A DNA stretch of 60,687 bases from Ruminococcus sp. (GTDB lineage: Bacteria > Bacillota > Clostridia > Oscillospirales > Ruminococcaceae), in contig SVNX01000012.1 in the NCBI GenBank assembly GCA_015066665.1, positions 1-60,687 of the forward strand, in the 5' to 3' direction. The notes beneath the pieces were generated by a model. The model made no database searches, was not told the origin of the DNA, and was given only the letters and a program-made list of their open reading frames with translations. Made by a program: the position numbers and the translations under genes. Shown piece by piece: positions 17,279-60,480 of the stretch; the first letter of the stretch is position 1, and the number at the start of each line of letters is the position of its first letter.

Positions 17279-18286
17279 CTATTCATGCATGCTGCGGTAC
17301 AGCGCACAGATTTCCTTTGCGGCAGCATCCTCAAGCTGCCGGTCATAATCGCCGGTGCTGCCAAGCGGAATCAGCGAACCCGTTTCACTCTCAAACAGGC
17401 ACAGCGTCCACAGCCCTGCGTCCCATTCCATATGCGTTTCCGACATGGGGGCATCGGGATTGACATCCGTGCCGAGCTGCCAGCATTTCTCCGCCTTATC
17501 CGCATCGACCCGTCCCGTGCATTTGAGTGCACCGGATTCGTACTGTTCCCACAGCCGCAGGCCTGCTTCCTCCCATGAAATCTCCTCATCGGGATCGTCA
17601 CTGAAATCGAAATGGAACACATTGCCCTCCAGATCAATGACCTCGCCATAATACTGGAATCCCTCCGCCCAGTTGCAGTGTATATTTGCCAGCACAAGTG
17701 CCGAGACAGCGTAAGCACCGCCCGTCTCCTGCGGCATCTGATACATGATGTATTCATCCCGCCGCACAGCGCCATCAATGAGTGCCTGAAACTGCACTGC
17801 CGTTTCCGGAGAATGCTCAGCATAGCAGTATGTGCCCGAATACGCACCGGAGACAATGAAGCTCGTCACGCCGCCCTCCTCGCCGTCATTCCGGTAGTGC
17901 ATGCCATAGCCGATATAAATCTCCTCCCCCGTCTCCCGGTGGGTCAGAATGAGAGGGTAATTGCTCGAATGTCCGCCCCCCTCAAGACGCTTCTGCTGCT
18001 CCTGCAGGCAGAGGAGGTCCCAGATTGCACGGCAGGTCTCATCATCGGTGATTTCACCGCGCCAGACCGTCTGCAGACCGTTTTCGATCACAAAGCTCCC
18101 GCCGCTGAACGTGAAATCATCCATGGACAGCTCACTGAAATGCAGATCGATGGCAGGCCCTGCGGGCACTTCATCGATCATGCCGGTTTCGGGCGGTGCT
18201 GCGCTGTCCGAATCGCTGCAGATCCGGCTGCATCCGCAAAACAGCATTGCCGATGCCAGCAGTACGGACAGGATTCCTCTTTTCAT
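17279..18286 (-). CDS. Lipoprotein of unknown function
   Basis: 335 aa from ATG 18286, four bases after the stop of the vWA gene, with GGAG upstream; this start puts MKRGILSVLLASAMLFCGCS at the N-terminus, a lipoprotein signal with the lipid Cys in FCGC. The mature part has two alpha/beta stretches, including FVIENGLQTVWRGEI, GYGMHYRNDGEEGG and YYGEVIDLEGNVFHFDF. I do not recognise the family. It is translationally coupled to the vWA lipoprotein gene, so a role in the same surface complex is likely (inference). Confidence 0.65.
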   Translation of the reverse strand: MKRGILSVLLASAMLFCGCSRICSDSDSAAPPETGMIDEVPAGPAIDLHFSELSMDDFTFSGGSFVIENGLQTVWRGEITDDETCRAIWDLLCLQEQQKRLEGGGHSSNYPLILTHRETGEEIYIGYGMHYRNDGEEGGVTSFIVSGAYSGTYCYAEHSPETAVQFQALIDGAVRRDEYIMYQMPQETGGAYAVSALVLANIHCNWAEGFQYYGEVIDLEGNVFHFDFSDDPDEEISWEEAGLRLWEQYESGALKCTGRVDADKAEKCWQLGTDVNPDAPMSETHMEWDAGLWTLCLFESETGSLIPLGSTGDYDRQLEDAAAKEICALYRSMHE

Positions 18287-18290
18287 CGCA

Positions 18291-20174
18291 TCAGTTCTCC
18301 ATCGGGTTGAAGTCACGGACACGGACGCCGCCCATCACACCGCAGCTGTAGCGGAAATTCACCATGCCGCTGCCATATGAGATGCTGCCCTCCTCCACAA
18401 GGCCGTTCTTGGCCAGTGCAATCAGCAGCTGCTGCACCTCAACAGCACGCTCATCCTCGCTCATTCCGGCATAGACATCGGACTGAATCATATTGGCGAG
18501 CGCCTGATCCACCTCCTGCATCGCCGCCAGCTCTGCATCACTGAAACCGGAGGGCTGCACTGTTTCCGTCGGCAGCTCTGTAGACGGTTCACTCGTAGCG
18601 GGATTCTCTGTCAGGGGCTGTGTTTCCCGCTCGGGCAGATAGAAATCGCTTCTGTCAAAGACAATATCCACAAGCTCGGCAAATTCCTTCCTGTAGTCAT
18701 TGTCCATATCGGTCTGATCGAGAAGCATCTGAATGCTGTCATAGGAAGAATTGCCCGCATAGGCACTGCCACGCAGGCACATGCCGTATTCTGCCACCGC
18801 AGCGGCAAAGGCCAGATTCTTCGGCATGGATTCACATGCGGCATCGCCCACAGTCACAGGGGTTTCGAGCAGCTGGCTCTCATCGGCATCGGGTGCCTTA
18901 TAGCGCAGTGCCAGATTCATCAGACCGGAATCGGACTGTGCGGAATCCTTCAGCACCACTTCATAGAGTGCGGTCACGGAATGACCTGCACCAATTTCAC
19001 CGGCATCGACCTTGTCATTGTCAAAATCCTCTGTATTGAGCACACGGTTCTCATAGCCGATGAGGCGGTAGCTTTCCACCGTATCCGCGTTGAATTCCGC
19101 CTGAATCTTCACATCCTTAGCCACAGTATAGAGCGTGCCGCCCATCTCCTGCACGAGTACCTTGCGTGCTTCCAGAAGGCTGTCGATGTAGGCGTAATTG
19201 CCGTTGCCGTTATCGGCCAGTGCCTCCAGACGGTCATCCTTGAGATTGCCCGTACCGAAGCCCAGAACGGACAGGTAGACGCCGCCGTCCCGCTTTTCCT
19301 CGACGAGTTTTGTCAGCTCTTCCTCGGAGGACGGGCCGACATTCAGATCGCCGTCAGTGGCGAGGATCACACGATTATTGCCGCCCTCGATGAAATGCTC
19401 CTGTGCGAGGGCATAGGCCTTGTTGATGCCGGCCGCACCCGCTGTGGAACCGCCCGCAGTCAGACTGTAGAGGGCATCGGTGATGGTCATATATTCATTG
19501 CCGCAGACGCCCTCGAGCACAACAGCCTCCTGACCGGCATAAGTCACGATGGAAATGCGGTCATTCTCAGTGAGATTCTCTGCCAGCATGGCAAAGGCCT
19601 GCTGCACGAGCGGGAGCTTGTTGGCATCGTACATCGAGCCGCTCACATCAATGAGGAAGACCACGTTCATGGGCGCACGGCCGCTCATGTCGATCTCCTC
19701 CGCCTGCAGACCTACGAGGAACAGCTCGCTCTCGGGATTCCACGGGCAGTCATACATCTCCGTTGTCACGGAAAAGGGCTTGCCGTCCGCGGGAGCGGGG
19801 TAGTCATAGGAGAAGTAGTTGATCATCTCCTCAATGCGTACAGCATCGGGGTCAACGGGCTGTCCGGCACGGATCATGCGGCGGACATTGGTGTAGGATG
19901 CGGTATCCACATCGATGGAAAACGTGCTGAAAGGCTGGTCGAGGGGAGAAACGAAGCCGTTTTCCGTGATCTCGTTGTATTCCTCCGTATTCGGCATTTC
20001 GGCCGGCATGCCGTTCTCCACGGCCGCCTCCATATCAAATCCGTCCATGGCCTGTTCGCCCTTGGCTTCGTTGGTGGTATATCTTATATCCGCACCGCCG
20101 CCGCAGGCCGTCATGGATACGGCCGCAAGCGCACAGGCTGTACAAAGTGCTGCGTAGTTGAGTCGTTTTTTCAT
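18291..20174 (-). CDS. von Willebrand factor A lipoprotein (YfbK type)
   Basis: 627 aa from ATG 20174 (AGGAGG upstream). Lipoprotein signal ending in SMTAC (Cys24); N-terminal YfbK domain (FSTFSIDVDTASYTNVRRM; RIEEMINYFSYDYP); vWA domain about 168-345 with the metal-ion-dependent adhesion site DVSGS (176-180); then a C-terminal domain (YRLIGYENRVLNTEDFDND; YEVVLK) related to DUF3520. A Thr/Pro/Glu linker leads to a last helical segment after residue 525. YfbK proteins are surface or periplasmic Ca/Mg-binding domains of unknown partner. Here it follows an ECF sigma/anti-sigma pair directly, as elsewhere in Firmicutes and Proteobacteria. Confidence 0.88.
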   Translation of the reverse strand: MKKRLNYAALCTACALAAVSMTACGGGADIRYTTNEAKGEQAMDGFDMEAAVENGMPAEMPNTEEYNEITENGFVSPLDQPFSTFSIDVDTASYTNVRRMIRAGQPVDPDAVRIEEMINYFSYDYPAPADGKPFSVTTEMYDCPWNPESELFLVGLQAEEIDMSGRAPMNVVFLIDVSGSMYDANKLPLVQQAFAMLAENLTENDRISIVTYAGQEAVVLEGVCGNEYMTITDALYSLTAGGSTAGAAGINKAYALAQEHFIEGGNNRVILATDGDLNVGPSSEEELTKLVEEKRDGGVYLSVLGFGTGNLKDDRLEALADNGNGNYAYIDSLLEARKVLVQEMGGTLYTVAKDVKIQAEFNADTVESYRLIGYENRVLNTEDFDNDKVDAGEIGAGHSVTALYEVVLKDSAQSDSGLMNLALRYKAPDADESQLLETPVTVGDAACESMPKNLAFAAAVAEYGMCLRGSAYAGNSSYDSIQMLLDQTDMDNDYRKEFAELVDIVFDRSDFYLPERETQPLTENPATSEPSTELPTETVQPSGFSDAELAAMQEVDQALANMIQSDVYAGMSEDERAVEVQQLLIALAKNGLVEEGSISYGSGMVNFRYSCGVMGGVRVRDFNPMEN

Positions 20175-20212
20175 AGTAATCCTCCTGTTCTGTATGGGAA
20201 GGCATGCGGGGA

Positions 20213-21124
20213 TTATAGCCTTCCCCATTCCTCTGCAAAGCGGATCAGGGCATCCGCATCGCCGAGATACATTCTGTCGTAAAAATAGTCCTCTGCTCCG
20301 AATCGTGCACAGACCAGCGGCTGTTCATCATCCTGACGGAACGACTGCCATCCGTTATGATAGACCGCCTGCCCGTCGGCTGTAAATTCCGGCTGGGGGG
20401 CACTGTCACAGCTTGTATGCCAGAAATTATCCTCATACCGCAGTCCCAGCAGATACCGGTGGCCGGACTGCATCAGATAGGGATTATCCGACCGCACTGC
20501 AATGGTCTCGCCGCTGTCAATGGCGGCATCGCCGTAGATCTGCTCCGGTATGAAAAAGTAGAGCATTTGTCCGTCCTCGGGATCCTGTGTGCCGCCGGCG
20601 ATCGTGCCGATGACAAGGCACTCGGAATCGGCCAGCACCTGCTCTTCACTGAACAGCTGCCCGCTGCCGGAAAGCATTGCGATGCTGTCAAGATGCACCT
20701 TATCCTGAGCCGTCGGAAAATGCAGACTCTCATACCGGATCGGTTCTGTCTGCGGATTTGACATGACGCCTTCATTCTCTTCTTTCATCTCTTCTCCGGC
20801 CTGCTCTTCAGCAGGTGCCTCGTTCATGAATCCATCGAAGTGCTCCTGCTGTACCTGCTCCTTGTTTTCTGCGGGTGCCATTGCATTCTGCAAACGGCCG
20901 CCCACAACGCCGACACCTGCCACAACAATCAGCAGACAGGCTGCCGCCGTAAGTACGGAGCGGAATACCTTTATGCCGGACGATGTCCTGCGGATGCTCT
21001 GCGGCCTGGGTGCTTCCTGCTGCGCCGGAAGTCCGGCTTCGATCCGCTGCCAGAGGGCTTCTCTATCCGGAATCGATTGCTGCATTTCTTCTCTGCACCG
21101 CTCTTCTATTTCTTTTCTTGTCAT
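20213..21124 (-). CDS. Membrane anti-sigma-like protein with extracellular domain
   Basis: 303 aa. Cytoplasmic N-terminus (about 1-50, IEERCREEMQQSIPDREALWQRI), membrane helix about 55-77, then a Glu/Gln-rich spacer and an outer domain with SIAMLSGSGQLFSEEQVLADSECLVIGTI. The start overlaps the ECF sigma stop by 4 bp, so it is taken as the cognate anti-sigma factor although no zinc finger is visible. The outer domain is not recognised; it could receive signals from the adjacent vWA lipoprotein (inference). Confidence 0.65.
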   Translation of the reverse strand: MTRKEIEERCREEMQQSIPDREALWQRIEAGLPAQQEAPRPQSIRRTSSGIKVFRSVLTAAACLLIVVAGVGVVGGRLQNAMAPAENKEQVQQEHFDGFMNEAPAEEQAGEEMKEENEGVMSNPQTEPIRYESLHFPTAQDKVHLDSIAMLSGSGQLFSEEQVLADSECLVIGTIAGGTQDPEDGQMLYFFIPEQIYGDAAIDSGETIAVRSDNPYLMQSGHRYLLGLRYEDNFWHTSCDSAPQPEFTADGQAVYHNGWQSFRQDDEQPLVCARFGAEDYFYDRMYLGDADALIRFAEEWGRL

Positions 21125-21669
21125 ACGAATCGTCCCTCCTTTGCCGTTTTCTGCAGCTTACTGATTGCATTCCGATATTTCCATGCAACAGTGCCAAGGG
21201 GACGTTTCAGAATTTCTGCAATTTCACGGAACGTCAATTCTGCTGCAATGTGGAGCTGTACGATCTCCCGCTCCTCCTCCGCCAGTCCCGACAGCAGCTG
21301 GGCTGCGCTCATTTCGCTGAGCACATTGTCCTCCGCTGTGACGGTTTCCGTCAGTGCGCCGGGGCAGACCTCGGACGCATCCTCAACCGGAATCTCCCGG
21401 CCGTGTCTGCGCATGTGGTCGATCGCCATATTCCGTGCGATGGTGTGCAGCCAGCTTCTGTGGCCGTTTCCCGCACGATACTGATCCGCAATGCTCCATA
21501 ACTTCAGAAAAAAATCGGAGGTCAGGTCTTCGGCATCCTGATGCCTGTGCACCCGGCTCAGGAACAGACTGTAGATCATATTGCCGTACGAATCATATAT
21601 GTCCCGCAGTCCGCTGCGATCGCCCTGCCTGATCTTTTCCATTGCGGTCTGGAATTCCGCATCCGTCAT
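21121..21669 (-). CDS. ECF RNA polymerase sigma factor
   Basis: 182 aa from ATG 21669, with GGAAGGAGAG upstream; a longer frame reaches into the terminator hairpin of the previous gene and is rejected. Region 2: QDAEDLTSDFFLKLWSIADQY and SWLHTIARNMAIDHMRRH. Region 4: LSGLAEEEREIVQLHIAAELTFREIAEIL and PLGTVAWKYRNAISKLQK. It is the first gene after the terminator at 21746-21781 and leads sigma, anti-sigma, vWA lipoprotein, lipoprotein and DUF3221-like gene. A clear SigA promoter is not visible in the 120-bp gap, so it may be read from an ECF-type promoter. Confidence 0.88.
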   Translation of the reverse strand: MTDAEFQTAMEKIRQGDRSGLRDIYDSYGNMIYSLFLSRVHRHQDAEDLTSDFFLKLWSIADQYRAGNGHRSWLHTIARNMAIDHMRRHGREIPVEDASEVCPGALTETVTAEDNVLSEMSAAQLLSGLAEEEREIVQLHIAAELTFREIAEILKRPLGTVAWKYRNAISKLQKTAKEGRFV

Positions 21670-21745
21670 GGTCTTCTCTCCTTCCGTGTGAAGCGTTTCG
21701 CTTCTGTAATATAGTACGGCCGTGCAGGCCGCTTTGTATGGAAAA

Positions 21746-21781
21746 ATCTGCACAAAATATCGTTCCATATTTTGTGCAGAT
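21746..21781 (-). terminator. Terminator after the PASTA pseudokinase gene
   Basis: A perfect 15-bp stem, ATCTGCACAAAATAT with ATATTTTGTGCAGAT, around a 6-nt loop. On the minus strand TTTTTCC follows. It splits the seven-gene cluster into two transcription units unless read through. Confidence 0.75.
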
Positions 21782-21791
21782 CTGATAGTTT

Positions 21792-23909
21792 TTAGTTTTC
21801 GGACACTTCAGCCGCCTGTGTTTCCGGCTCGGTTGGCTCCGGTTCCGTTGCGGGCGGATCTGTGGGAGGATCCGTCGGGGGATCCGTCGGCGGATCGGTC
21901 GGGGGATCCGTCGGCGGTGCCGTTGTGGTCGGCGGCTCGGTCGGCTCAGGCGTCGAGGTGGTCTCGGGTTCGGTCGGCTCGGCGGTGGTGGTCGCCGTGG
22001 TTTCCTGTTCGGTCGTCGCCGTAGTCGGTGCCGTGGTCTGCACTGTCGTGGCCGTTGTGGCAACGGTCGGAAGCGGATCGCCCGACCATCCGCCGGTACT
22101 GATCACGCTGTTGCCCTCACCGGTGCTGACCGTGATCCAGACCTCACTGCCCTTGGGGGCAAGCTGTCCGGCTGTCACATTCTGCGAAATGACGCAGTCC
22201 TTGGCATAACTGGGATCGGCCACATAGGCGATGACGGCCTTGAAGCCGGCCTCTTCCAGAATACGCTTGGCGGCATCGGAGAAGAGCATGGTCACACGGG
22301 GCACGCGTGCCGTTTCCACACCAAGGCTCACGACCATGTTGATGGAAGTACCCTGCGGCACGGTGGAACCGGCGGGGATGTCCTGCGAAATGATGACACC
22401 GGCCGGAATATCGGGATCGTATACAGCTTCCGCCTGCAGTGCATAGAGATAGATATCCGCAAGAAGCGACTGTGCCTCCTCGAAATCCATGCCGACATAA
22501 TCGCCGACTTCCTCATACTTCGTCGGATCGACGTCATCACGGCCGAGAGAAACCTTCAGGACAATGACGGACTCACGGCTCAGAAGCGTATTCGGCTTGA
22601 TGCTCTGACTGATGACGGTGCCGGGGGCAAATTCCGTGCTGCTGACTTCCTGATACTTGATGAAGAAGCCGAGCTGCTCGAGGGAGGAGATGGCATCGGC
22701 AATGCGCATATTCACGACATTCGGGACGTAATTCTCCCAGCCGTCGCTGATGGTCAGCTTGAGCGTGCCGCCGGTACGGATGCCGGTGCCCGCCTTCGGG
22801 GACTGCATGATGACCGCATCGGTGGGGACTGTCGGATTCTCCTCACGGGAGGCAATGATCACACGCAGACCCAGCTCCTGTGCAATCTGCAGTGCCTCAT
22901 CCTGCGGCAGATAGACCAGATCCGGCACGATGACTTCATCGGCGGCCAGTTCACGGACATAATCGGGCAGACGGGAACTGCCGGTCACCACTGCCCAGAC
23001 AAGCACGGGCAGCAGACAGCAGAGGATGCAGAAGACCACAGCGGCCTTGCCCCATGCCTTGCCGGCACCAGGTACAGCGGCAGCAGCCGATTTTGTCTCG
23101 GCACGGCGCAGACGGGGTGCCGCACTGCTGCCATGCAGCTGCGACCAGAGCTGTTCGATCGTCATTTCTTCGGCTTCCATGCCGTTCTGCAGTGCGCTGC
23201 GCACGGGTGCGGACAGCGAAGCCATTCCTTTTTTAGTAATTTCCGTTTCGCCTGTGAGCATCCGGTAAAGCAGACGGCTCACCGCACGGACATCGCCCCG
23301 CACGGATGCGTCATCAGCAAATTCCTCGCAATAGCAGGCACCCCAGTCGGTCAGGATGGTCTCCTCCTCACTGAGCACAATGGTCTGCTCGGTGATGGCA
23401 CCATGATAAATCCCCTCGGCATGCAGGCCGGCGAGCGTATCGAGCACGGGTGCAAGCACATCCACGGCCTCGGCAAGGGTGAAGGGCTCGCCTTCCATTT
23501 CCGTGCAGAGCGCCCTTGCAGGTTCCCCTTCCGTCACGGTAAAGAGCGTGCCGTTTTCTTCAAAGCAGTCGAGCACGGCTTCCACCGCACTCTCCTCGTC
23601 AAATTCCTGAAGCTGTGCCATACGGGCGAGATAAGATGCTTTAACAGCCGCAAACTCCGCTTCCGCAGCACGGTGATAGGGCACCCATTCACCGGCTTCT
23701 GTCTGCATGCACCAGCGCATGGGCAGAAGCATATGCATCAGCACAGGAATATTGGTGGTGATTTCCACAGCACGGCAGGTCAGCTCCATGCCGCTCACAC
23801 GCAGCGGTTCTTCGATCCGATAGCGTTCCTGCACCAGTGTGCCCGCAGGGAGCATGGCCTGGCGCACCGCTTTCGGAAAATGTTCGGTTTCTTCACTGAA
23901 CCAGATCAT
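21792..23909 (-). CDS. Membrane pseudokinase with four PASTA repeats (PrkC/PknB-like)
   Basis: 705 aa. A divergent kinase-like domain (about 20-265), a membrane helix (about 288-309), four PASTA repeats (about 326-388, 394-456, 465-529, 535-597) and a Thr/Pro tail ending in five TDPP units (666-685). PASTA domains bind peptidoglycan and beta-lactams in PrkC/PknB. The catalytic loop HRDxKxxN reads HGAITEQTI (169-177), so base Asp, Lys and Asn are missing; the DFG equivalent is DWG (188-190); no glycine-rich loop or beta-3 Lys is apparent. It is therefore a probable pseudokinase. The start lies 11 bp after another pseudokinase gene, and the two share a promoter. Confidence 0.82.
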   Translation of the reverse strand: MIWFSEETEHFPKAVRQAMLPAGTLVQERYRIEEPLRVSGMELTCRAVEITTNIPVLMHMLLPMRWCMQTEAGEWVPYHRAAEAEFAAVKASYLARMAQLQEFDEESAVEAVLDCFEENGTLFTVTEGEPARALCTEMEGEPFTLAEAVDVLAPVLDTLAGLHAEGIYHGAITEQTIVLSEEETILTDWGACYCEEFADDASVRGDVRAVSRLLYRMLTGETEITKKGMASLSAPVRSALQNGMEAEEMTIEQLWSQLHGSSAAPRLRRAETKSAAAAVPGAGKAWGKAAVVFCILCCLLPVLVWAVVTGSSRLPDYVRELAADEVIVPDLVYLPQDEALQIAQELGLRVIIASREENPTVPTDAVIMQSPKAGTGIRTGGTLKLTISDGWENYVPNVVNMRIADAISSLEQLGFFIKYQEVSSTEFAPGTVISQSIKPNTLLSRESVIVLKVSLGRDDVDPTKYEEVGDYVGMDFEEAQSLLADIYLYALQAEAVYDPDIPAGVIISQDIPAGSTVPQGTSINMVVSLGVETARVPRVTMLFSDAAKRILEEAGFKAVIAYVADPSYAKDCVISQNVTAGQLAPKGSEVWITVSTGEGNSVISTGGWSGDPLPTVATTATTVQTTAPTTATTEQETTATTTAEPTEPETTSTPEPTEPPTTTAPPTDPPTDPPTDPPTDPPTDPPATEPEPTEPETQAAEVSEN
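21856..21920. repeat. 12-bp tandem repeat coding for TDPP units
   Basis: About five near-identical units of the type GGATCCGTCGGG on the plus strand, coding for (TDPP)5 in the PASTA protein tail. Copy-number change would be in frame. Confidence 0.75.
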
Positions 23910-23920
23910 AACAGCCTCCC

Positions 23921-25627
23921 TTACGATTGTGATGCAGGATCAAAGCAGGTCAGTGTATCATCCACAAAGGCATACTGACTGTGGCGTCCTGCGATGTCAT
24001 ACATGGCCGCACGGTGGACGGGCAGCGTCCCGCCGCCGTCACTGAAGAGAATGTCCTGTGCCTCCTCCGTCAGCAGATACTGCAGCCAGAGCATGCCGAT
24101 ACGCTTGCTGTCGGTATCCTTTTCGCTGTTAACCGCACAGAATTGGTCATAGGACAGCGGATAACGGCCGTTGACAGAGACCGGTGCCATCTGCACGGTG
24201 CCCACTGCCATGGGCGTGTGCTGCACGGTATACAAGCAGGACGAATCAGCCAGAATCGGCATACTGCCATCGTTCATAAAGAACGAGAAATCAATCTTTG
24301 TGCGGATGGTTTCCAGATCGCCGCCGAGATAGCTGACGCTCTCATCATAGCAGATCTCCACCGGAAGCGTTTCAAAATCCGGCTCGGTGAGTGTCATTTC
24401 ACTGCCGCGGTAGGTGTTCCAGTACAGTGCGGGGAAAGTGCAGCCCAGCGGCAGAACATCGCCGAATGCAGTGAGATCGGTCATATATGTATCGTAAAGG
24501 GAGCGGTGCAGCAGCGTCAGATCCTCCGCCGGCACATCAATTCCGCCGCAGTCCATGAACACTGCGGGATGCGCAGCCGGATCACCGGCAACGGCCTTCT
24601 GATAGGCCGCTTCGCCGTAGAGGGTGATGTTGACGCCGTAGCCCGGGTATTTTTCCTCAAAGCCCTCGGTGAGACGCTCATAGACCGCAACGGCTTCCTG
24701 TTCATCGGTGCCCATGGGCAGCGGTGCCCAGACATCGATCACACCGGGGGTAATCATGCCGCTGCGCAGACAGCTGTGCAGGGACATGCGGCTCTGATAG
24801 ACATGATGTGCCGCCACAATGCCCAGTCCCAGACAAACCACACACAGTGCAGCCAGCAGAAGCGGCCGTCTGGATGCGGTCGAGGTTGCCTCCAGCTTGT
24901 CCTCGCCTTCTTCACAGATCAGCGCACGCTTGAGCGTGGCAGCATCCTTATAGCGGCGGGGCAGAACCTCCTGCAGAACGATGCGGGACGGATCGGCGTT
25001 GTTTTCGTCCTCTTCACAGAGGGCAAGGCATTCAGTCAGAAAATCACACAGTGCCCCCAGATCGGATGCGGCCGAAGCAGCAGGCGAAAAGAAATAGTCA
25101 CTGGAAAGGAAAAGGTGACCCGTACTGTCCGTGAGCAGCTCGTTCAGGGTCAGTCGGCCGCCGGACATGGCCGGATGCATCACGGCGTAGGCATCGCAGA
25201 GCTGAATGCCAAGGCTGCGTACATAGGACGGAGTCATGAGGAGATCCGCATCGGAAAGTCTTGTGGTCTCACGGTATTCTGCTGCGCAGTAGGCTGTGCC
25301 GTTTTCAGCAAAAGCCTCCCTGACCGCAAGGGTATGCGGAATCGGCTTCTCCTGCAGAAGAGCTGCCCGCTCAAGGAACTGTGCCACAAGTGCCGTCATT
25401 TCCTTTTCCGGTGCCTCCACTGTGCCCGCATCGCTGCGCACAGCCATCTGATGGGGAAAGCACTCCCTGATATAATAGTACGCCTCGCCGTCTTCCGTAC
25501 CGGCAAGGTACGAAATTCCGCTTCTGTCCTCGGAAACCGTCCGCAGCACGGTGTAAGTTCCATGCAGCACGGTGCCCGTCGGCAGACAGCTGGCGCTGAA
25601 TCGTCTTGTATTCTGACCTGATTCCAT
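23921..25627 (-). CDS. Pseudokinase fused through one membrane helix to a solute-binding-protein domain
   Basis: 568 aa. Residues 16-240 form a kinase-like domain of the Clostridia type: the usual VAIKEYFP strand reads YYYIRECFP with Arg54 for the beta-3 Lys, no glycine loop is seen, the catalytic-loop region is MHPAMSGGRLTLNELL without base Asp, and the DFG region is SDYF. A single membrane helix spans about 255-274. Residues 296-545 look like an extracellular solute-binding protein: VIDVWAPLPMGTDEQ, LTEGFEEKYPGYGVNITLY, AVAGDPAAHPAVFMDCGG, then LLTEEAQDILFSDGGGTLPVHRAAM as at the end of family 1 binding proteins. No permease gene is adjacent. A ligand-sensing receptor is the likeliest reading (inference). 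First gene of its operon; promoter at 25683-25711. Confidence 0.75.
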   Translation of the reverse strand: MESGQNTRRFSASCLPTGTVLHGTYTVLRTVSEDRSGISYLAGTEDGEAYYYIRECFPHQMAVRSDAGTVEAPEKEMTALVAQFLERAALLQEKPIPHTLAVREAFAENGTAYCAAEYRETTRLSDADLLMTPSYVRSLGIQLCDAYAVMHPAMSGGRLTLNELLTDSTGHLFLSSDYFFSPAASAASDLGALCDFLTECLALCEEDENNADPSRIVLQEVLPRRYKDAATLKRALICEEGEDKLEATSTASRRPLLLAALCVVCLGLGIVAAHHVYQSRMSLHSCLRSGMITPGVIDVWAPLPMGTDEQEAVAVYERLTEGFEEKYPGYGVNITLYGEAAYQKAVAGDPAAHPAVFMDCGGIDVPAEDLTLLHRSLYDTYMTDLTAFGDVLPLGCTFPALYWNTYRGSEMTLTEPDFETLPVEICYDESVSYLGGDLETIRTKIDFSFFMNDGSMPILADSSCLYTVQHTPMAVGTVQMAPVSVNGRYPLSYDQFCAVNSEKDTDSKRIGMLWLQYLLTEEAQDILFSDGGGTLPVHRAAMYDIAGRHSQYAFVDDTLTCFDPASQS

Positions 25628-25682: not shown

Positions 25683-25711
25683 AGTATAGCATATTTCCTT
25701 CATATTGTCAA
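25683..25711 (-). promoter_or_regulatory. Promoter of the pseudokinase pair
   Basis: TTGACA, 17-nt spacer, TATACT on the minus strand, with a leader of about 50 nt. Confidence 0.75.
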
Positions 25712-34539: not shown

Positions 34540-35505
34540 TCAGTGCTGGCCTTCTACCGTGACAATATAGCCATCGGAATTGTTGCCGGAAATCTCATAC
34601 TTTGCCTTCTTCGGGATCGGCACTTCCGTTGTGCCGCCCGCAGAGGGAACATAGTAGACTGTATAGATCGTCTCGCCGACAGTATAGTACAGCGGCACGT
34701 CCATTGTATGTGCTCTGAGATAGTCATAATAACCGCTGAGCGTCAGGTTCTGGCTCTGCATGATGCCTGCATGCACCTTGCCGATAAAGCGCAGATGATG
34801 CGGTGCAGCACCCACACCGGATGCGGAATCCGCTTCCGTATAGCTGAACACAAAGCCATACTTCCAGGCATTCTCACTCAGCCATGCATTGGGCTTTTCA
34901 ATGCGGGAAATCGTCTCATCCTCATTGAGGATGCACAGATCCACGCAGTAGCCGGTGCACTGATCCGGCAGTGCATTGGGATAAAGGCTGCCCGCCTTTT
35001 CGTAGGGTGCTGTGGTGCTGTACACCATCAGATTGGCGGCACCGTTGGCGGACTGATAGGCCGTGCCCATGGCATTCATCGCATTGACCACCGCAGACTG
35101 CACGGGCAGATCCATACGCTTCATGCGGTAGCTCTCATTTTTCTTTTCAAATGTAGTAAAATCACCGGGGTTGCCGGAATAAGAATGTGTGCTGTCCAGC
35201 TGCACCAGCATACCAGTATGGATGGCTGCCTCGTCCTGCGGAATGGTCATGTAGCCGTCGGGCACATCCTCTCCGCCGCCCAGACCCGAACCTGCCTCCT
35301 GAATGATCAGGGTATTGCCGGCATCATCCGTTGTCAGGATGGTCTCGGCCGGTTCCGTCTCGGAATTATTGAAGCGAGCATCATCTATGGCTGCTTTTTC
35401 ATCGGGCTGGTTTACGAGACGATACACTGCGTCTCCACCCCAGATGAGTCCGAACAGTACGCCGCAAATCACGACAGCGCCGCGGACTGAAAGTTCTCTT
35501 GCCAT
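34540..35505 (-). CDS. Second VanY-fold membrane-anchored pseudoenzyme
   Basis: 321 aa. Membrane anchor about 8-24, a linker to about 85, then an M15B-like domain with QCTGYCVDLCI, WLSENAWKYGFVFSY and PHHLRFIG, and a C-terminal VPIPKKAKYEISGNNSDGYIVTV that matches the end of the 156-1226 protein. In this copy Asp189 and His237 of the zinc site are kept, but the first ligand His is Gln182 and the catalytic Glu is Ala234. It is less decayed than the first copy, still unlikely to hydrolyse peptide bonds. It lies downstream of a dacF-like gene on the same strand, after a 77-bp purine-rich spacer. Confidence 0.7.
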   Translation of the reverse strand: MARELSVRGAVVICGVLFGLIWGGDAVYRLVNQPDEKAAIDDARFNNSETEPAETILTTDDAGNTLIIQEAGSGLGGGEDVPDGYMTIPQDEAAIHTGMLVQLDSTHSYSGNPGDFTTFEKKNESYRMKRMDLPVQSAVVNAMNAMGTAYQSANGAANLMVYSTTAPYEKAGSLYPNALPDQCTGYCVDLCILNEDETISRIEKPNAWLSENAWKYGFVFSYTEADSASGVGAAPHHLRFIGKVHAGIMQSQNLTLSGYYDYLRAHTMDVPLYYTVGETIYTVYYVPSAGGTTEVPIPKKAKYEISGNNSDGYIVTVEGQH

Positions 35506-35582
35506 ATGTTTCTCCTGTTGTCTTCTGTTCTGTATTTCTCTCTTTTTTCTATCTTCTCTTTTTCTGTCTTCTTTTGTATTCT
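35506..35582 (-). other. Purine-rich spacer between dacF-like and VanY-like genes
   Basis: On the minus strand this 77-nt stretch is almost only A and G, with just a few pyrimidines, ending in ACAGGAGAAAC before the ATG. It contains no gene or hairpin. Confidence 0.6.
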
Positions 35583-36626
35583 TTATTCTTCTTCATCCAT
35601 GGGGTAGGTGCCTGTCACAACACCGTAGAGCTTGAAGGCGTCATATACAGGATGCCATTTTGAGGTACCGCCGGCTGTCACGGCAATATAGGTCTTGCCG
35701 TCCGGTGTGACACCATAGCTTGCCAGGCACTGTCCGGCCTCATCCGTGTAACCGGTCTTGCCGCCGGTAATGGTAATGCCCTCGACCTCGGTGCCATACA
35801 TACGATTGAACATAGTGTTGTTCATGGTGATGCCGGCAGGATTCTGTTCGGTCTGACGGGTGGTATGTACATAAGTGGAAATGATCTCGCGGCAGCGGTC
35901 ATTCATCATGCAGTACTCCAGAATCAGTGCAATATCTGTTGCAGTGCTGTAGTGATCGAGATCATGCAGGCCGCTTGCATTGGTGAAATGGGTGTTGACG
36001 AGCTCAAGCTCTTCCACCTTTTCATTCATCAGTTCCACAAACGCCTCTTCGGAACCAGCCACTTCAATGGCAAGTGCCGTGGTTGCATCTGCACCGGAGG
36101 GCAGCGCTGCACCAAAAAGCAGATCTCTGAAGGTGCACTTCTCACCGTCGAGGAAGCCCGCACGGGATGCATTTGCCTCGATCAGCGGGTCGATGATCTC
36201 CTGTGTCATCGTAAATGTTGCATTGAGGTCTTCAATATGCTCAATGGCCACAATCAGGGTCATGAGCTTCGTCATGGAAGCGGGATACATTTTCTGATCT
36301 GCGCTCTTTTCCGCAAGAATCAGGTCATTTTCCGGATCGATCAGTACCGCATAGGCACTGTCGATGCCCTCTGTGGAAGGCAGCACGCCGTTCTCGGACG
36401 GATACTGCACAGGGCTTGTCGGCTCCGTGGTCGGCTCCGTGGGGGGCAGCGTGGGCATTGTAAAGGCAGCTTCGCTCTCAAGCGTTGCCACCGGTGTAAC
36501 CGGGGTGGAAAGTACGGCAATGATGGCAATCATACCGCCGAGGATCACAACGATCATCACGAGCAGCAGCCATATCACACCCTGGGAATTCTTTGCAGCA
36601 GGCTTTTTACTTGTTTCTTTCTGCAA
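35583..36626 (-). CDS. dacF: Serine D-alanyl-D-alanine carboxypeptidase (S11 family)
   Basis: 347 aa from a TTG start with GGAGTG 11 nt upstream; no in-frame ATG lies near it. Membrane helix about 17-40, Pro/Thr linker, then the S11 catalytic domain: Ser117-Met-Thr-Lys120 (SxxK), the SxN motif written SGA (177-179) and KTG (290-292). The Asn of SxN contacts substrate in family members, so its change to Ala may lower or alter activity. It trims the terminal D-Ala from peptidoglycan stems. The N-terminal membrane anchor replaces the usual C-terminal amphipathic anchor. First gene of an operon with the VanY-like gene. Confidence 0.88.
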   Translation of the reverse strand: MQKETSKKPAAKNSQGVIWLLLVMIVVILGGMIAIIAVLSTPVTPVATLESEAAFTMPTLPPTEPTTEPTSPVQYPSENGVLPSTEGIDSAYAVLIDPENDLILAEKSADQKMYPASMTKLMTLIVAIEHIEDLNATFTMTQEIIDPLIEANASRAGFLDGEKCTFRDLLFGAALPSGADATTALAIEVAGSEEAFVELMNEKVEELELVNTHFTNASGLHDLDHYSTATDIALILEYCMMNDRCREIISTYVHTTRQTEQNPAGITMNNTMFNRMYGTEVEGITITGGKTGYTDEAGQCLASYGVTPDGKTYIAVTAGGTSKWHPVYDAFKLYGVVTGTYPMDEEE

Positions 36627-41946: not shown

Positions 41947-44613
41947 TTACTTTACAGGAAGTGTCATCAGATCAACGAGGGACTTCAGTACGCACAGAGA
42001 GTCAGCAGCTTCTACCTCGCCATTGAGGTCAACGTCTGCGTTCAGCTTCTGCTGTGCATCAAGTGTCTCGACACCGAGAACAGCCTTGTTCAGGTAAACA
42101 ACGTCAACGATGGAAACAGTGTCATCAAGGTTCAGGTCACCATATACAGTCTCTGTAGGATCTGTAGAAGAGGTGTTACCCTCGGACTTGATGTATGCAC
42201 CAACGATGGCAGCACTGGATGTGGGAGCCTCTTCGCCTGCGGCATCATTTGCCCACCATACCTGACCGGTCAGTTCCTTCAGCTCGAGCAGACCTGCGGA
42301 AGCAGCAGCCACGATGGCTTCGTCAGTTACCTCAACGCCGTCGAGGGAAACCTGGAAGATCTCGGTCATATCCATTTCGATCTCACCGGAGCCATTTGCT
42401 ACCCACTGTACTGCTACCCAGTAAGTGGTACCATCTACTTCAACATTGCCTGCTACGCAGCCATTTGCATAAGAAATACCGGTTTCGAGTTCAACATCAA
42501 GATACAGAGTATCGCCCACTGCCTCAGGCAGGGAGATGCTCACGCCATCCGCAGTTTCCTTTACAGTTGCCTCTACCTTGGTAGAATCGTCTTCGGTGGT
42601 AGGCTCTGTGGTGGGCTCTGTGGAATCAGAAGTACCGGGTGTAGCATCAGCCAGCCAAGCGTCTACGAACTTCACGTCAGTCTTGGAACCGCCCTCAGCA
42701 GACCAAACCTGTGCCTGGAAGGATGTATTCTGGGTCTTCAGGATTTCAGCAAGCTGAGCGATGATGGCTTCGTCAGTCACAGGATCACCATCGGATGTGG
42801 TCACATTGAAGAAGTTGTCAGTATCCACTTCAATCACGCCGGAACCAGTTGCTTCCCAGCTGATATTTGCCCAGTAATAGGTATCGCCGATCATGGAGCC
42901 GGCACCCATACCGCCGCTTGCAGAAGTCACGCCATCTGCAAATTCAAGCTCTACAAAGAAGGATTCACCCACAGCCTCGGGGAATGTCAGCGCTGTGTAG
43001 CCTTCTTCCTCTACAACCTTTGCATGGCCATCCTCAGGGGGTGCTGTAGGAGTGATGGGATCGGTCGGCTCGGTTGTCTCGGGAACGAATGCAGGGCCTG
43101 TGTACTCATAGGTCTTGTAATTCGGCAGCTCGTCAAGTGTGATGACTGTCTCGCTCTGATAGAGCTTGATCAGTGTCTCTTCGTTATTCATGAGAGTCAG
43201 GAACTTACCATTGTCCTGATCACCCTCATACCAGGGGCAGAAATACAGCCAGTATGCATTTTCGCTGGTCATATTGTCGACAGCAGGAATGGTGTCACAC
43301 TCGGACAGAGCGATCATCTTGCCATACTTGTTGTACATATCCACAAGGCCGTTGAATGTGGAGGAAATAGCGCTCTCATTGGGGTTATTGGCAGAAGCAT
43401 TGTACTTGTCATAACCAACGAGATCCACATAATCATTGCCGGGATACCAGTTGTAGGACTTTGCATAGGTATAGCTGTTGAATTCCCAGATGAGGTTATG
43501 GAGACCATACTCTTCAGTCAGGGTATCATACAGCAGGTGCCACAGAGCCTTATAGGTTGTGGAACCATCCTTGCCCCACCAGAACCAGGAAGCGGACTCA
43601 CCGCCGCCGCCTTCTGCCTCATGGAAAGGACGGAAGATCAGCGGAACGCCTGCATCCTGCAGCTGCTTGAGCTCGGTAGCCAGCAGATCCACAGCATCCA
43701 TGAAGTACAGATATTCCTTGGAGGTCTTGTCAGTCAGAATCTTTGTGGGGCTGAAATCTGTCTCAACGCCGTAGGTTGCGTTGCTCCAGTCAACCTTATC
43801 GCCCACGTTGTAGGAGGACATATCCTTCGGAACATTGATATGCCAGGAAGCAGTTGCAATACCGCCCTTATCGTTAACCCAGCTGATGACACGTTCTGTT
43901 GTGCCGTCATCCCAGCCGTACAGAGAGTTATAGTTCATGAAGTCGAAGCCGCGGATGGCAGGCAGTTCGCCGGTCAGATCCTGCAGATAATCGAATTCCC
44001 ACTCGTAGTTGCCGTTATGGCCGCCGCCGTAGGTCTCCTGCTGACCGGAAATGATATTCTTGCCATACATATCAGCCATGTAGTTCATCAGGCCCTGTGC
44101 TTCCGCAGTTGCATTCGGGTCGCTCAGGATATTGCACTGGTTGAGTTCTTCAATCTCAGCGGGTGCGATGGAAACATAGTCAAACAGAGTCCAGCCCCAG
44201 TTGCCGACGATGGTCACAGTGTTGTCACCCTCATTGAGCATAACAGTACCGAACTTCATCTCCTCAAAGCCCGTGCCCTCGGGGAAGCTCACATTGCCCT
44301 GGTTCTCGCCGTTGACTTCCAGACCCTGCACCTTATCACCATAAATGGCAGCATAGCCGATGGTGAGTTCATACATACCCTTTTCAGGAGCAGTAACAGT
44401 CACAGAAATGGTATCTGCGTTGTCCTCGAGGAAAACATAACCTGTGCCGGAATAACCGGACTGTTCGGACATGACTCTTGCAAGGCCGGTCTGTGTGCCG
44501 TCCTCAAATTCAAATCTTGCGTCAGCAGCAAGCGAGCTAAACGGAACTGTCATCAGACAATTCATTGCCAAAGCGCAGGCAATACCGCCGCCGATGAGTC
44601 TCTTTTTAAGCAT
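41947..44613 (-). CDS. Secreted GH26 beta-mannanase with CBM35-like, two further modules and dockerin
   Basis: 888 aa from ATG 44613, with GGAAGGAAG upstream; a TTG two codons earlier is not needed. Signal peptide 1-30; CBM35-like module about 33-150 (FEFEDGT, then YVFLEDNADTISVTV); GH26 barrel about 160-500 with acid/base Glu332 in FRPFHE and nucleophile Glu438 in ALSECD; Pro/Thr linker; two homologous modules at about 535-655 and 685-805, each with the core (P/L)PEAVG and a YWANISW or YWVAVQW strand, like small carbohydrate-binding modules of Ruminococcus (identity unproven); type I dockerin 822-888 (GDLNLDDTVSIVDVVYLNK; ADVDLNGEVEAADSLCVLK). It hydrolyses mannan and docks to a cellulosome scaffoldin. 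Confidence 0.92.
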   Translation of the reverse strand: MLKKRLIGGGIACALAMNCLMTVPFSSLAADARFEFEDGTQTGLARVMSEQSGYSGTGYVFLEDNADTISVTVTAPEKGMYELTIGYAAIYGDKVQGLEVNGENQGNVSFPEGTGFEEMKFGTVMLNEGDNTVTIVGNWGWTLFDYVSIAPAEIEELNQCNILSDPNATAEAQGLMNYMADMYGKNIISGQQETYGGGHNGNYEWEFDYLQDLTGELPAIRGFDFMNYNSLYGWDDGTTERVISWVNDKGGIATASWHINVPKDMSSYNVGDKVDWSNATYGVETDFSPTKILTDKTSKEYLYFMDAVDLLATELKQLQDAGVPLIFRPFHEAEGGGGESASWFWWGKDGSTTYKALWHLLYDTLTEEYGLHNLIWEFNSYTYAKSYNWYPGNDYVDLVGYDKYNASANNPNESAISSTFNGLVDMYNKYGKMIALSECDTIPAVDNMTSENAYWLYFCPWYEGDQDNGKFLTLMNNEETLIKLYQSETVITLDELPNYKTYEYTGPAFVPETTEPTDPITPTAPPEDGHAKVVEEEGYTALTFPEAVGESFFVELEFADGVTSASGGMGAGSMIGDTYYWANISWEATGSGVIEVDTDNFFNVTTSDGDPVTDEAIIAQLAEILKTQNTSFQAQVWSAEGGSKTDVKFVDAWLADATPGTSDSTEPTTEPTTEDDSTKVEATVKETADGVSISLPEAVGDTLYLDVELETGISYANGCVAGNVEVDGTTYWVAVQWVANGSGEIEMDMTEIFQVSLDGVEVTDEAIVAAASAGLLELKELTGQVWWANDAAGEEAPTSSAAIVGAYIKSEGNTSSTDPTETVYGDLNLDDTVSIVDVVYLNKAVLGVETLDAQQKLNADVDLNGEVEAADSLCVLKSLVDLMTLPVK

Positions 44614-44669
44614 AATCAAATTCTTCCTTCCATAATTAGTTTTACACCGTCCACTTCAGTGTATATCTA

Positions 44670-57828: not shown

Positions 57829-57891
57829 ATAAATACAATATGAATTTTTTGTTTCGAGAAAAATAAAAGAAACAATATGGAGGAATTGGAC

Positions 57892-60480
57892 ATGAAAAAG
57901 CGCATCAGACCCATTGGGCTGCTGCTGGCTGCGTGCCTGATGGGCACTTATGGGGGAAACATAGCCTGCCATGTCAGCGCGGCGGAAAATGTTGTAGTCT
58001 CGCCCTACAACAAGTACGAAATCAACGACGGCGAATTTGAAGGTTGGGGCACATCCCTCTGCTGGTGGGCGAACCGCATCGGCTATTCGGATTCCCTTGC
58101 CCAGCAGGCAGCCGACGCCTTCTATGGAGACAACGGCCTGCGGCTGAACATCGCACGATTCAATATCGGCGGCGGCGATGATCCGACCCACACCCACATC
58201 ACCCGCACGGATTCCAACATGCCCGGCTACACTGTTTACAACAACGGCAATGTGACCTACAACTGGAACGCCGACCACAACCAGAGAAATGTGCTGCTCA
58301 AGGCCATCGAGGCGGCCGGCGATGACATGATCGTTGAGATGTTCTCGAATTCGCCGCCCTATTACATGACGAACAGCGGCTGCAGCAGCGGCGGCAATGA
58401 TCCGAACAAGAATAATCTGAAAGACGACTGCTATGACGATTTTGCGGAATATTTCGCTGAGGTCTGCTACCATTACGAAACCGTCTGGGGCGTGGACATT
58501 CAGTCGGCCACTCCTCTGAATGAGCCCTACACCAATTACTGGAGCGCAAACAGTCCCAAGCAGGAGGGCTGCCACTTTGATCAGGGCGAATCCGAATCCA
58601 GAATCATTCTGGAGCTGCAGAAATCAATGGATGCCAGAGGTCTGGGAGATGTGATTCTCTCCGGTACGGATGAAACCTCCATCGATACGCAGATCACCTC
58701 CTACCAGAAGCTGTCGGCGGATGCCAAGGCGGCAATCGATCGTATTGACACACATACTTACAGCGGCAGCAAGCGTACGGAACTGAAGGAGCTTGCCATC
58801 AGTGAAGGCAAGAATCTCTGGATGAGTGAGGTTGACGGCGGCAGTACAGCCGGCACGAATGCAGGCGAAATGGGCTCGGCTCTCTGGCTTGCACAGCGTA
58901 TCACGACCGATGTCAATGATCTCAACGCTTCCGCATGGATCATGTGGCAGGTCATCGACAACCACATCTCGAAGGACGGCTACAACGGCAACAAGGATTC
59001 CGGCATGGTCAATGTCAACGGCGGCTTCTGGGGCACAGCGGTCGCAGACCATGACAATGACAAGATCATCCTCACAAAGAAGTACTATGGCTTCGGCCAG
59101 TATTCACGCTATATCCGCCCCGGCATGACAATGCTGAAATCCTCCGGCTCAACCGTGGCGGCCTATGATCCGGAAAAGGAACAGCTGGTCATCGTTGCCT
59201 ATAATACGGGCGGCAGTACAAAGGATATGAGCTTTGATCTCTCGGGCTTTGGCACTGTGGGAGGATCGGCACAGATCATCCGCACGAGTGCCACCGAAAA
59301 CTGGGCAAATGCCGGTACTGTCAAGACCAGCGGCACTTCCCTGAATGTATCGCTTCCGGCCAACTCCATCTCCACTTTCCTCATTGATGGTGTAACGGGC
59401 GGCAAGGCACTTGAGAACAAGATCGACATCACAAAGGATATGATCTCCGGCAGCAATGCATGGAATAATTCCTCCAACGACTGCTACAAGGTCTTCGACG
59501 GCAGCACCTCCACTTACTTTGATGGCGTCGGCAATGGCTGGGTGCAGGTGAATCTCGGTCAGCTCTATGACATTTCGGCCATCGGCTATGCCCCCCGCGG
59601 CGGCTATGAGTACCGCTGTCCGGATGCAATGTTCATGGTTTCGAAGGATGGCGTGAACTGGGAGACCATCCACACCATCAAAGCACAGCCCAGCGGCGGC
59701 ATGAATTATGTGACCAGCTTCACGGGCGGCACGGCCGCACAGTATGTGCGTTATCAGGTGCCGGAGGGTGCACCCACGAACCAGTGGAACAAGGATAACA
59801 CTTATTGCTGCAATATCGCCGAAATCGAGCTGTACGGCACACTGAATGTGGCCGCAACACAGACGAAGATCACACCGGCGGAGATTTCCGGCAGCAACGC
59901 ATGGAACAATTCCGCAAACGACTATACAAAGGTATTCGATGGCGATCTTTCGACCTTTTTCGATGGTGTCGGCAATGGCTGGGTCATGGCCGACCTCGGG
60001 GCACTTTATGAAATCACTGCCCTTGGCTATGCACCGAGAAAGGGCTATGAATACCGCTGTCCGGATGCAATGATGCAGATTTCGAAGGACGGCACAAACT
60101 GGACAACGGTCTACACCGTTCCGAACCAGCCTGCATTTGCCATGCAGTACATCAAGGATTTCGATGGTGACATGACCGCCCGCTATGTCCGCTATATTGT
60201 ACCGGAGGGTGCACCGCAGAATTTCTGGAATACGGATGATGTATACTGCTGCAATCTCTCGGAACTCGAGATCTACGGTGATTTCGTCAGTGACATCACC
60301 ATCGAGGGCGATGTGAATGCGGATGGCACACTGAGTCTTCTGGATGTGGTGACACTGCAGAAGTGGCTGCTGCAGTCGAAGGGCGTCGTGCTCACCGACT
60401 GGGAAGCTGCGGATCTTTGCAAGGATGGCCGCATCGATGCATTCGATCTGGCACTGATGAAGCGCAAGCTCCTCAAATAA
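57892..60480 (+). CDS. Secreted GH30 enzyme (endo-beta-1,6-galactanase type) with two CBM32-like modules and dockerin
   Basis: 862 aa from ATG 57892 (GGAGGAATT upstream). Signal peptide 1-31; GH30 barrel plus side beta-domain about 36-500, with acid/base Glu211 in TPLNEPYTNYW and nucleophile Glu313 in WMSEVDGG; FEGWGTSLCWWA and FSNSPPYYM match subfamily 5 (beta-1,6-galactanase). Two F5/8 type C (CBM32-like) modules, 512-649 and 659-797, are nearly duplicate (SGSNAWNNS, FDGVGNGWV, GYEYRCPDAM, YVRY.VPEGAP). A type I dockerin, 803-862 (GDVNADGTLSLLDVVTLQKWLL; CKDGRIDAFDLALMKRKLL), ends the protein. It would cut arabinogalactan side chains as a cellulosome part. Substrate is a family-level inference. 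Confidence 0.9.
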   Translation: MKKRIRPIGLLLAACLMGTYGGNIACHVSAAENVVVSPYNKYEINDGEFEGWGTSLCWWANRIGYSDSLAQQAADAFYGDNGLRLNIARFNIGGGDDPTHTHITRTDSNMPGYTVYNNGNVTYNWNADHNQRNVLLKAIEAAGDDMIVEMFSNSPPYYMTNSGCSSGGNDPNKNNLKDDCYDDFAEYFAEVCYHYETVWGVDIQSATPLNEPYTNYWSANSPKQEGCHFDQGESESRIILELQKSMDARGLGDVILSGTDETSIDTQITSYQKLSADAKAAIDRIDTHTYSGSKRTELKELAISEGKNLWMSEVDGGSTAGTNAGEMGSALWLAQRITTDVNDLNASAWIMWQVIDNHISKDGYNGNKDSGMVNVNGGFWGTAVADHDNDKIILTKKYYGFGQYSRYIRPGMTMLKSSGSTVAAYDPEKEQLVIVAYNTGGSTKDMSFDLSGFGTVGGSAQIIRTSATENWANAGTVKTSGTSLNVSLPANSISTFLIDGVTGGKALENKIDITKDMISGSNAWNNSSNDCYKVFDGSTSTYFDGVGNGWVQVNLGQLYDISAIGYAPRGGYEYRCPDAMFMVSKDGVNWETIHTIKAQPSGGMNYVTSFTGGTAAQYVRYQVPEGAPTNQWNKDNTYCCNIAEIELYGTLNVAATQTKITPAEISGSNAWNNSANDYTKVFDGDLSTFFDGVGNGWVMADLGALYEITALGYAPRKGYEYRCPDAMMQISKDGTNWTTVYTVPNQPAFAMQYIKDFDGDMTARYVRYIVPEGAPQNFWNTDDVYCCNLSELEIYGDFVSDITIEGDVNADGTLSLLDVVTLQKWLLQSKGVVLTDWEAADLCKDGRIDAFDLALMKRKLLK

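Follow-up and report, generated by a model that had tools for sequence, protein, structure and literature searches.

The gene P0001 (23921..25627, minus strand) of a Ruminococcus sp. contig encodes a 568-aa fusion of a pseudokinase, a single transmembrane (TM) helix and a solute-binding-protein (SBP) domain. We put at about one in two the probability that this protein forms half of a two-subunit membrane sensor, which would have its ancestry in common with an active receptor-kinase tandem and would have given up phosphorylation. The candidate second subunit lies immediately downstream in the window, by which we mean the whole 60,687-nucleotide stretch of DNA that was analysed: a 705-aa pseudokinase-TM-PASTA protein (21792..23909, minus strand; PASTA E 4.5e-49) whose gene begins 11 bases past the stop codon of the fusion. 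The first-pass annotation of the fusion left out this partner, which is essential to the picture. Its proposals of a kinase-like domain joined through one helix to an SBP, and of lost catalytic residues, are borne out by the profile searches and alignments described below. Moreover, comparison with collected homologues confirms the fusion as a real gene that is kept within its genus; a frameshift or fusion artefact is ruled out by its presence in 14/37 same-genus genomes, its own included.

Searched as a single sequence, the 568-aa protein matched no Pfam family at E up to 1 and nothing in NCBIfam, and both domain assignments therefore rest on profiles. With a 12-row profile the pseudokinase (residues 12-240; 24908..25594, minus strand) matched the PpkA kinase at 8.7e-16 over profile positions 23-167, the sole PDB match at E<0.001. 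It also aligned with its active relatives (hhalign 2.3e-19, 156 columns), in an alignment that stops short of the activation segment. Judged by this profile homology to protein kinases, the half has a kinase fold. Its catalytic residues are lost: the beta-3 Lys is Arg54, other residues occupy the alpha-C Glu, HRD His, HRD Asp, Asn, DFG Asp and DFG Gly columns, and the segment as far as APE is deleted. The same is seen across the window family, where none of 11 rows keeps the four key residues of an active Hanks-type Ser/Thr kinase; the beta-3 Lys, alpha-C Glu, HRD Asp and following Asn are absent from all 11 and the activation segment is deleted. The beta-3 column holds Arg in 8 rows, Ala in 2 and Val in 1. 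An Asp is retained in the DFG-Asp column of 2/11 window-family rows and 5/6 partner rows, which we count against our best reading. In the active relatives every catalytic column examined is intact (9/9 rows).

In four close species pairs, the window protein not among them, dN/dS was 0.12-0.30 for the pseudokinase and 0.10-0.21 for the SBP domain, rough values given that dS was >1 in three of the four pairs. These ratios point to purifying selection on both domains among close relatives. Mean pairwise identity within the window family (9 rows, omitting the near-copies L072 and L073 and truncated rows) was 32.3 for the pseudokinase and 43.6 for the SBP domain, and in the PASTA partner (9 rows) it was 41.4 for the pseudokinase and 53.8 for PASTA. 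The active family (8 rows) gave 56.8 for the kinase and 26.4 for the SBP domain, or 61.5 and 36.5 when the three active members of the window genus were taken alone. Conservation is thus inverted, with the kinase ahead of the SBP domain in the active pair and the SBP domain ahead of the pseudokinase in the degenerate family. Taken with the dN/dS values, these identities indicate that the pseudokinase is maintained where it is present, yet less so than the ectodomain.

The ectodomain (residues 290-560; 23948..24760, minus strand) was assigned by profile homology through an intermediate. Its profile aligns with that of the active-relative ectodomain at 1.3e-17 over 264 columns, and the latter with bona fide transporter SBPs at 1.5e-13 over 236 columns; hhalign controls with unrelated profiles gave 0.6, 0.38 and 0.41. 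Direct likeness is weak. Against a first SBP set the window ectodomain reached 2.1e-5 (55 columns, probability 77), against a broader set of bona fide SBPs 4.5e-6 (102 columns, probability 87), and only 5/29 family members matched SBP_bac_8, and 5/29 SBP_bac_1, at E up to 0.1. The best solved match in the PDB was a xylo-oligosaccharide-binding protein (XOS-binding) at 3.9e-5. Among active-relative ectodomains, Pfam at E up to 0.01 finds SBP_bac_8 in 7/8, with L117 scoring 39.3 bits over a cut-off of 27, and SBP_bac_1 in 6/8. By transitivity through the active family, where the support is strong, the window ectodomain has profile homology over both lobes to SBPs of the carbohydrate type (SBP_bac_1/8). 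The earlier label of a family-1 binding protein fits loosely, given these Pfam matches of the active relatives on the one hand and the length of the domain on the other. At ~270 aa, compared with ~420-460 aa for the whole transporter SBPs aligned, the ectodomain is a compact form.

The partner has the layout of kinase-like domain, TM helix and PASTA repeats that is common to the PASTA kinases PrkC, StkP and PknB. Unlike these it scores 157.6 bits against NF033483, below the cut-off of 450, and its catalytic residues are lost as well: the 6/6 rows checked keep the HRD His but have none of the beta-3 Lys, alpha-C Glu, HRD Asp and Asn. A PASTA gene comes next after the window-family gene in 31/31 named loci, several of which reach contig ends; just the last part of the first gene is present in L099 and L100, and at L084 the two genes share one ORF.

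Beyond the partner, the tightly packed same-strand run continues with an ECF sigma factor (21121..21768, minus strand), a putative anti-sigma factor (20213..21124, minus strand; no Pfam match, assigned by position, overlap with the sigma gene and a hydrophobic segment seen by eye), a YfbK-type vWA protein (18291..20228, minus strand) and, again by eye and with no Pfam match, a putative lipoprotein (17279..18322, minus strand). Upstream of the fusion gene lies a sigma-70-type promoter-like site, TTGACA-17-TATACT (25683..25711, minus strand), in which TG precedes the second hexamer. A TTGA-N19-TATA dyad is found upstream of 16/26 relatives, the window gene among them, compared with at most 3-5 over 20 single-base shuffles. 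As the dyad is sigma-70-like, ECF autoregulation was rejected. Relatives of the sigma factor occur in 35/38 genus genomes: the gene adjoins the pair in 15, lies apart with contig to spare in 12, and has its adjacency hidden by a contig end in 5, whilst in 3 no pair was found, in searches for the pair that covered all but G610.

The pair might be a dedicated regulator of this sigma/anti-sigma module, with an outside ligand changing the hold of the pseudokinases on the anti-sigma factor. The packing of the run in the window would suit such a role, as would the adjacency of sigma factor and pair in all four members of the window subclade and in 15 genomes overall; phosphorylation of an ECF sigma factor by a Hanks-type kinase has been published for another system, according to the available part of PMC13147305. 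However, among the 27 genomes that allow adjacency to be judged, 12 have the sigma gene elsewhere, the dyad upstream of 16/26 relatives is sigma-70-like, and the linkage is kept in species that have no kinase domain in either partner. We consider this reading unlikely, although it fares best among the alternatives. Since the linkage is patchy across the genus, sigma control is a lineage-specific possibility and not clearly the general function.

Several other features of the surroundings deserve mention. Genes for a VanY-type and an S11-type D-alanyl-D-alanine carboxypeptidase lie side by side in the window at 34543-36626. Dockerin-bearing proteins are encoded at 41950-44619 and 57877-60477 (GH26-CBM35-dockerin and F5/8C-dockerin), and a GH10-CBM-dockerin protein stands beside the pair in G005 (L038 432-3782). 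With these dockerin-bearing proteins the host has the look of a fibre degrader of the cellulosome type. A role in anti-phage defence was considered and rejected: PADLOC gave no match for the 568-aa protein, and the matches of the partner and the active kinase to the PD-T4-6, mad6 and MkoA models are taken as generic kinase similarity.

An intact version of the pair is present in the same genome. Contig C36 carries a 660-aa zinc-ribbon-kinase-TM-SBP protein with the motifs VAIKEFF, HRDIAPDN and DFGAAR; a kinase-PASTA gene comes next. The active ectodomain was found in 8/394 genomes of the order at E<1e-70, own genome included, with 12 further matches at E 3e-10 to 3e-6 in frames of 427-545 aa. 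Within the genus it was found at E<1e-40 in 3/38 genomes, the other 5 matches being window-family genes. At 11/11 loci examined, the active SBP-kinase lies directly upstream of an intact kinase-PASTA gene on the same strand (one of these loci, L164, is included on a profile match to ectodomain residues 495-557 only), and 8/9 active SBP-kinase rows have the N-terminal zinc ribbon. The window pair has the same arrangement, SBP type then PASTA type, adjacent and on one strand; the intact kinases of the tandem are what the window family lacks. In the kinase tree each pseudokinase groups with the other (97/96) rather than with its own active counterpart, which counts against our best reading. Constraining the SBP types together cost 14.8 log units (AU p=0.079), so that grouping by SBP type is neither rejected nor demonstrated. 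Parallel decay, one common pseudokinase ancestor and long-branch attraction are all possible.

Variants of the tandem were also seen. L157 (11438-15529) and L161 (12084-15539) each have a further PASTA kinase after the first, giving a three-kinase array. A divergent active kinase with a shorter SBP-like ectodomain (~240 aa) adjoins a PASTA kinase in G199 (L105 121-1872; L164 5359-7110). The window's own genome moreover has three consecutive kinase-like frames of 481, 578 and 721 aa (G000:C24:85833-89481), which match only Pkinase profile positions 94-258.

The co-occurrence of intact and degenerate pairs in three genomes, G000 (the own genome), G009 and G020, raises the idea that the fusion acts on the intact pair on C36 as a dominant decoy or modulator, through mixed dimers. 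Against this, a strong match to the intact SBP-kinase was found in only 3/38 genus genomes, compared with a degenerate gene or fragment in 33/37, although incomplete genomes could hide some. We regard the decoy as improbable.

The degenerate family shows a graded loss of its kinase domain. A scan of genome contigs with the single protein found no relative, whilst an alignment found 31 loci. In the 37 genus genomes, own included, we counted 14 with the pseudokinase fusion, 2 with the kinase C-lobe only and 15 with TM helix and SBP domain and no kinase; a further 2 hold contig-edge fragments and 4 are without a copy. The 14 fusions include G005, whose 5' end is cut by a contig edge, and G010, split across two contigs. 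The 15 kinase-less genomes include G019, which starts from a contig edge and was judged by its sisters, G033, in which the gene is one ORF with the partner, and G013, with a 212-aa version. Thus in 17/37 genus genomes the SBP subunit has no N-lobe or no kinase domain at all, and the TM helix and ectodomain are retained; the pseudokinase is dispensable in sister species. All six frames of the named loci, 15 kinase-less and 2 C-lobe, were searched for a hidden or frameshifted pseudokinase, and nothing came up beyond the known C-lobes and the kinase domains of the partners. In a concatenated ectodomain tree rooted on the active family, a single clade unites 14 kinase-less rows (90/92; 87/88 with L084 added), L084 is a second, separate kinase loss that groups with two full fusions (99/99), and the two C-lobe-only rows form one clade (100/99). 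The tree points to loss of the SBP-subunit kinase domain at least twice and of the N-lobe once. Within the kinase-less clade the partner kinase domain persists in L090 and is gone from the other rows that have a partner; by inspection the partner has lost it at least twice, apparently after the loss in the SBP subunit. At L084 (2381-5455, G033) the SBP subunit and the PASTA partner are one 1025-aa ORF, and between SBP and pseudokinase there is neither a stop nor an evident TM helix. The resulting topology would be odd, and a sequence error or internal start is therefore likely.

Across 61 genomes the ectodomain matches were restricted to the genus, the one outside match (G058) spanning only residues 15-127. 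At the level of the order, the ectodomain profile matched 10/294 genomes at E 1.3e-9 to 1e-3, comprising four kinase-SBP fusions and six stand-alone proteins 527-608 aa long, all of which adjoin a permease-like ORF by eye. Taken to the whole class, a 3-row profile had 9 matches outside the order, in frames of SBP length that look like lipoprotein SBPs by eye.

These losses bear on how the protein might signal. Nucleotide-binding pseudokinases exist, and the purifying selection on the pseudokinase in the four relative pairs would fit a switch worked by nucleotide occupancy, through which ATP or metabolite state is signalled to the ectodomain or a partner. Such a switch is nevertheless very improbable, as the beta-3 Lys, alpha-C Glu, HRD Asp and Asn are gone from 11/11 rows, the activation segment is deleted, and the N-lobe or entire domain is missing from 17/37 genus genomes. 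The first-pass annotation had offered protein contacts or nucleotide occupancy as the mode of signalling; with all catalytic and nucleotide-binding columns checked changed in this protein and relatives dropping the N-lobe or domain, the second is disfavoured and protein contacts are the better option. Least probable of all, despite the SBP homology, is a membrane-tethered transporter SBP carrying an accidental kinase remnant, since the gene is followed in the window by PASTA, sigma, putative anti-sigma and vWA genes and no ABC transporter parts, a PASTA gene comes next in 31/31 named loci, and intact kinase-SBP fusions exist in the order.

The helix of the fusion (residues 255-273; 24809..24865, minus strand) is its only hydrophobic helix, and its Cys262 is present in 29/29 rows between variable flanking columns. 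The partner helix (22995..23054, minus strand) carries the motif F293-C294-x-x-C297-x-x-x-P301, with F293 in 27/28 rows, C294 in 28/28, C297 in 27/28 and P301 in 27/28, so that each partner has an invariant TM cysteine in these alignments. Partners L084 and L100, outside the alignment, fit the motif, and the SBP-subunit TM Cys is seen by eye in L084 and L065. C-terminal to its PASTA repeats the partner has a conserved GGWSG-x-PLP motif (22068..22094, minus strand). No FCxxC motif occurs in the 11 active PASTA-kinase TM segments examined, and GGWSG is in no ORF of the active loci. Counting against our best reading, in 6/9 active SBP-kinases a Cys lies within the TM segment or next to it, with no column fixed; the SBP-subunit Cys is fixed in the degenerate family and was perhaps not invented there. 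As the TM and ectodomain features persist without kinase domains, the helices and ectodomains look like the working core.

We return to the two-subunit sensor, for which the homology of both domains to the active pair and the conserved pairing also argue. Its SBP domain would bind a small extracellular ligand, our best guess being a saccharide or cell-wall fragment, and its PASTA partner would be held at peptidoglycan. The two subunits would associate via their TM helices, and ligand binding would alter this association. Where it remains, the pseudokinase may scaffold a cytoplasmic partner, which could be the adjacent anti-sigma/ECF sigma system or an active kinase. The whole would be a catalysis-free envelope sensor that signals through membrane helices. 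More tentatively, and at rather less than an even chance, we propose that a receptor-kinase pair shed its enzymes stepwise, from active kinase to pseudokinase to C-lobe only or no kinase, and is now a catalysis-free co-receptor with a dispensable kinase scaffold, driven by ectodomain-led rearrangement of two helices with fixed cysteines.

The joining of a kinase and an SBP in one polypeptide is itself already in print. The first-pass annotation knew of no described pairing of a kinase fold with a family-1 binding protein, a claim that fails on two counts: intact kinase-SBP genes occur in the same order and genome, and the available part of PMC6069109 describes MSMEG_1200 and a further 260 SBP kinases in InterPro (SBPs of whatever type). 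These have kinase and SBP domains on one polypeptide like the window protein. As described there they are Mycobacterium and Streptomyces kinases, whereas the window family is dead, belongs to Oscillospiraceae/Ruminococcus and has a PASTA partner. The same source describes an SBP that feeds PknG. In PknG-GlnX-GlnH an SBP acts as sensor for a Ser/Thr kinase system, as in our reading of the window family; there, however, the SBP is a separate lipoprotein and a second membrane protein links it to an active, TM-less kinase, whereas the window protein is a fusion. Similarly, CuaD/CuaSR uses an SBP as sugar sensor in a cellulolytic clostridium, but with a separate SBP and a two-component system, going by the part of PMC10384115 available. 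EssB/YukC, treated in a 2025 review of bacterial pseudokinase families (PMC12599244), also combines a pseudokinase domain with a TM segment in Firmicutes; unlike the window protein it is a type VII secretion component, and the window protein matched it neither in Pfam at E up to 1 nor in the PDB at 0.001. In the available part of that review the words 'solute', 'extracellular' and 'substrate-binding' are absent and 'PASTA' occurs once, in the references. Judged by title and start of abstract, none of the literature matches listed, among which subscription journals are thinly covered, describes a pseudokinase, PASTA and solute-binding pair. What is new is the history of a degenerate counterpart to the intact tandem.

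This history bears on why bacteria keep pseudokinases. One genus offers a natural series of intact, dead, half-deleted and fully deleted kinase domains, and with related ectodomains and helices throughout, the series lets one ask directly where in a receptor kinase the signal is carried. Moreover, several families of the order have the intact SBP-kinase/PASTA-kinase tandem, a route, open to testing, by which an extracellular solute could act on Ser/Thr phosphorylation.
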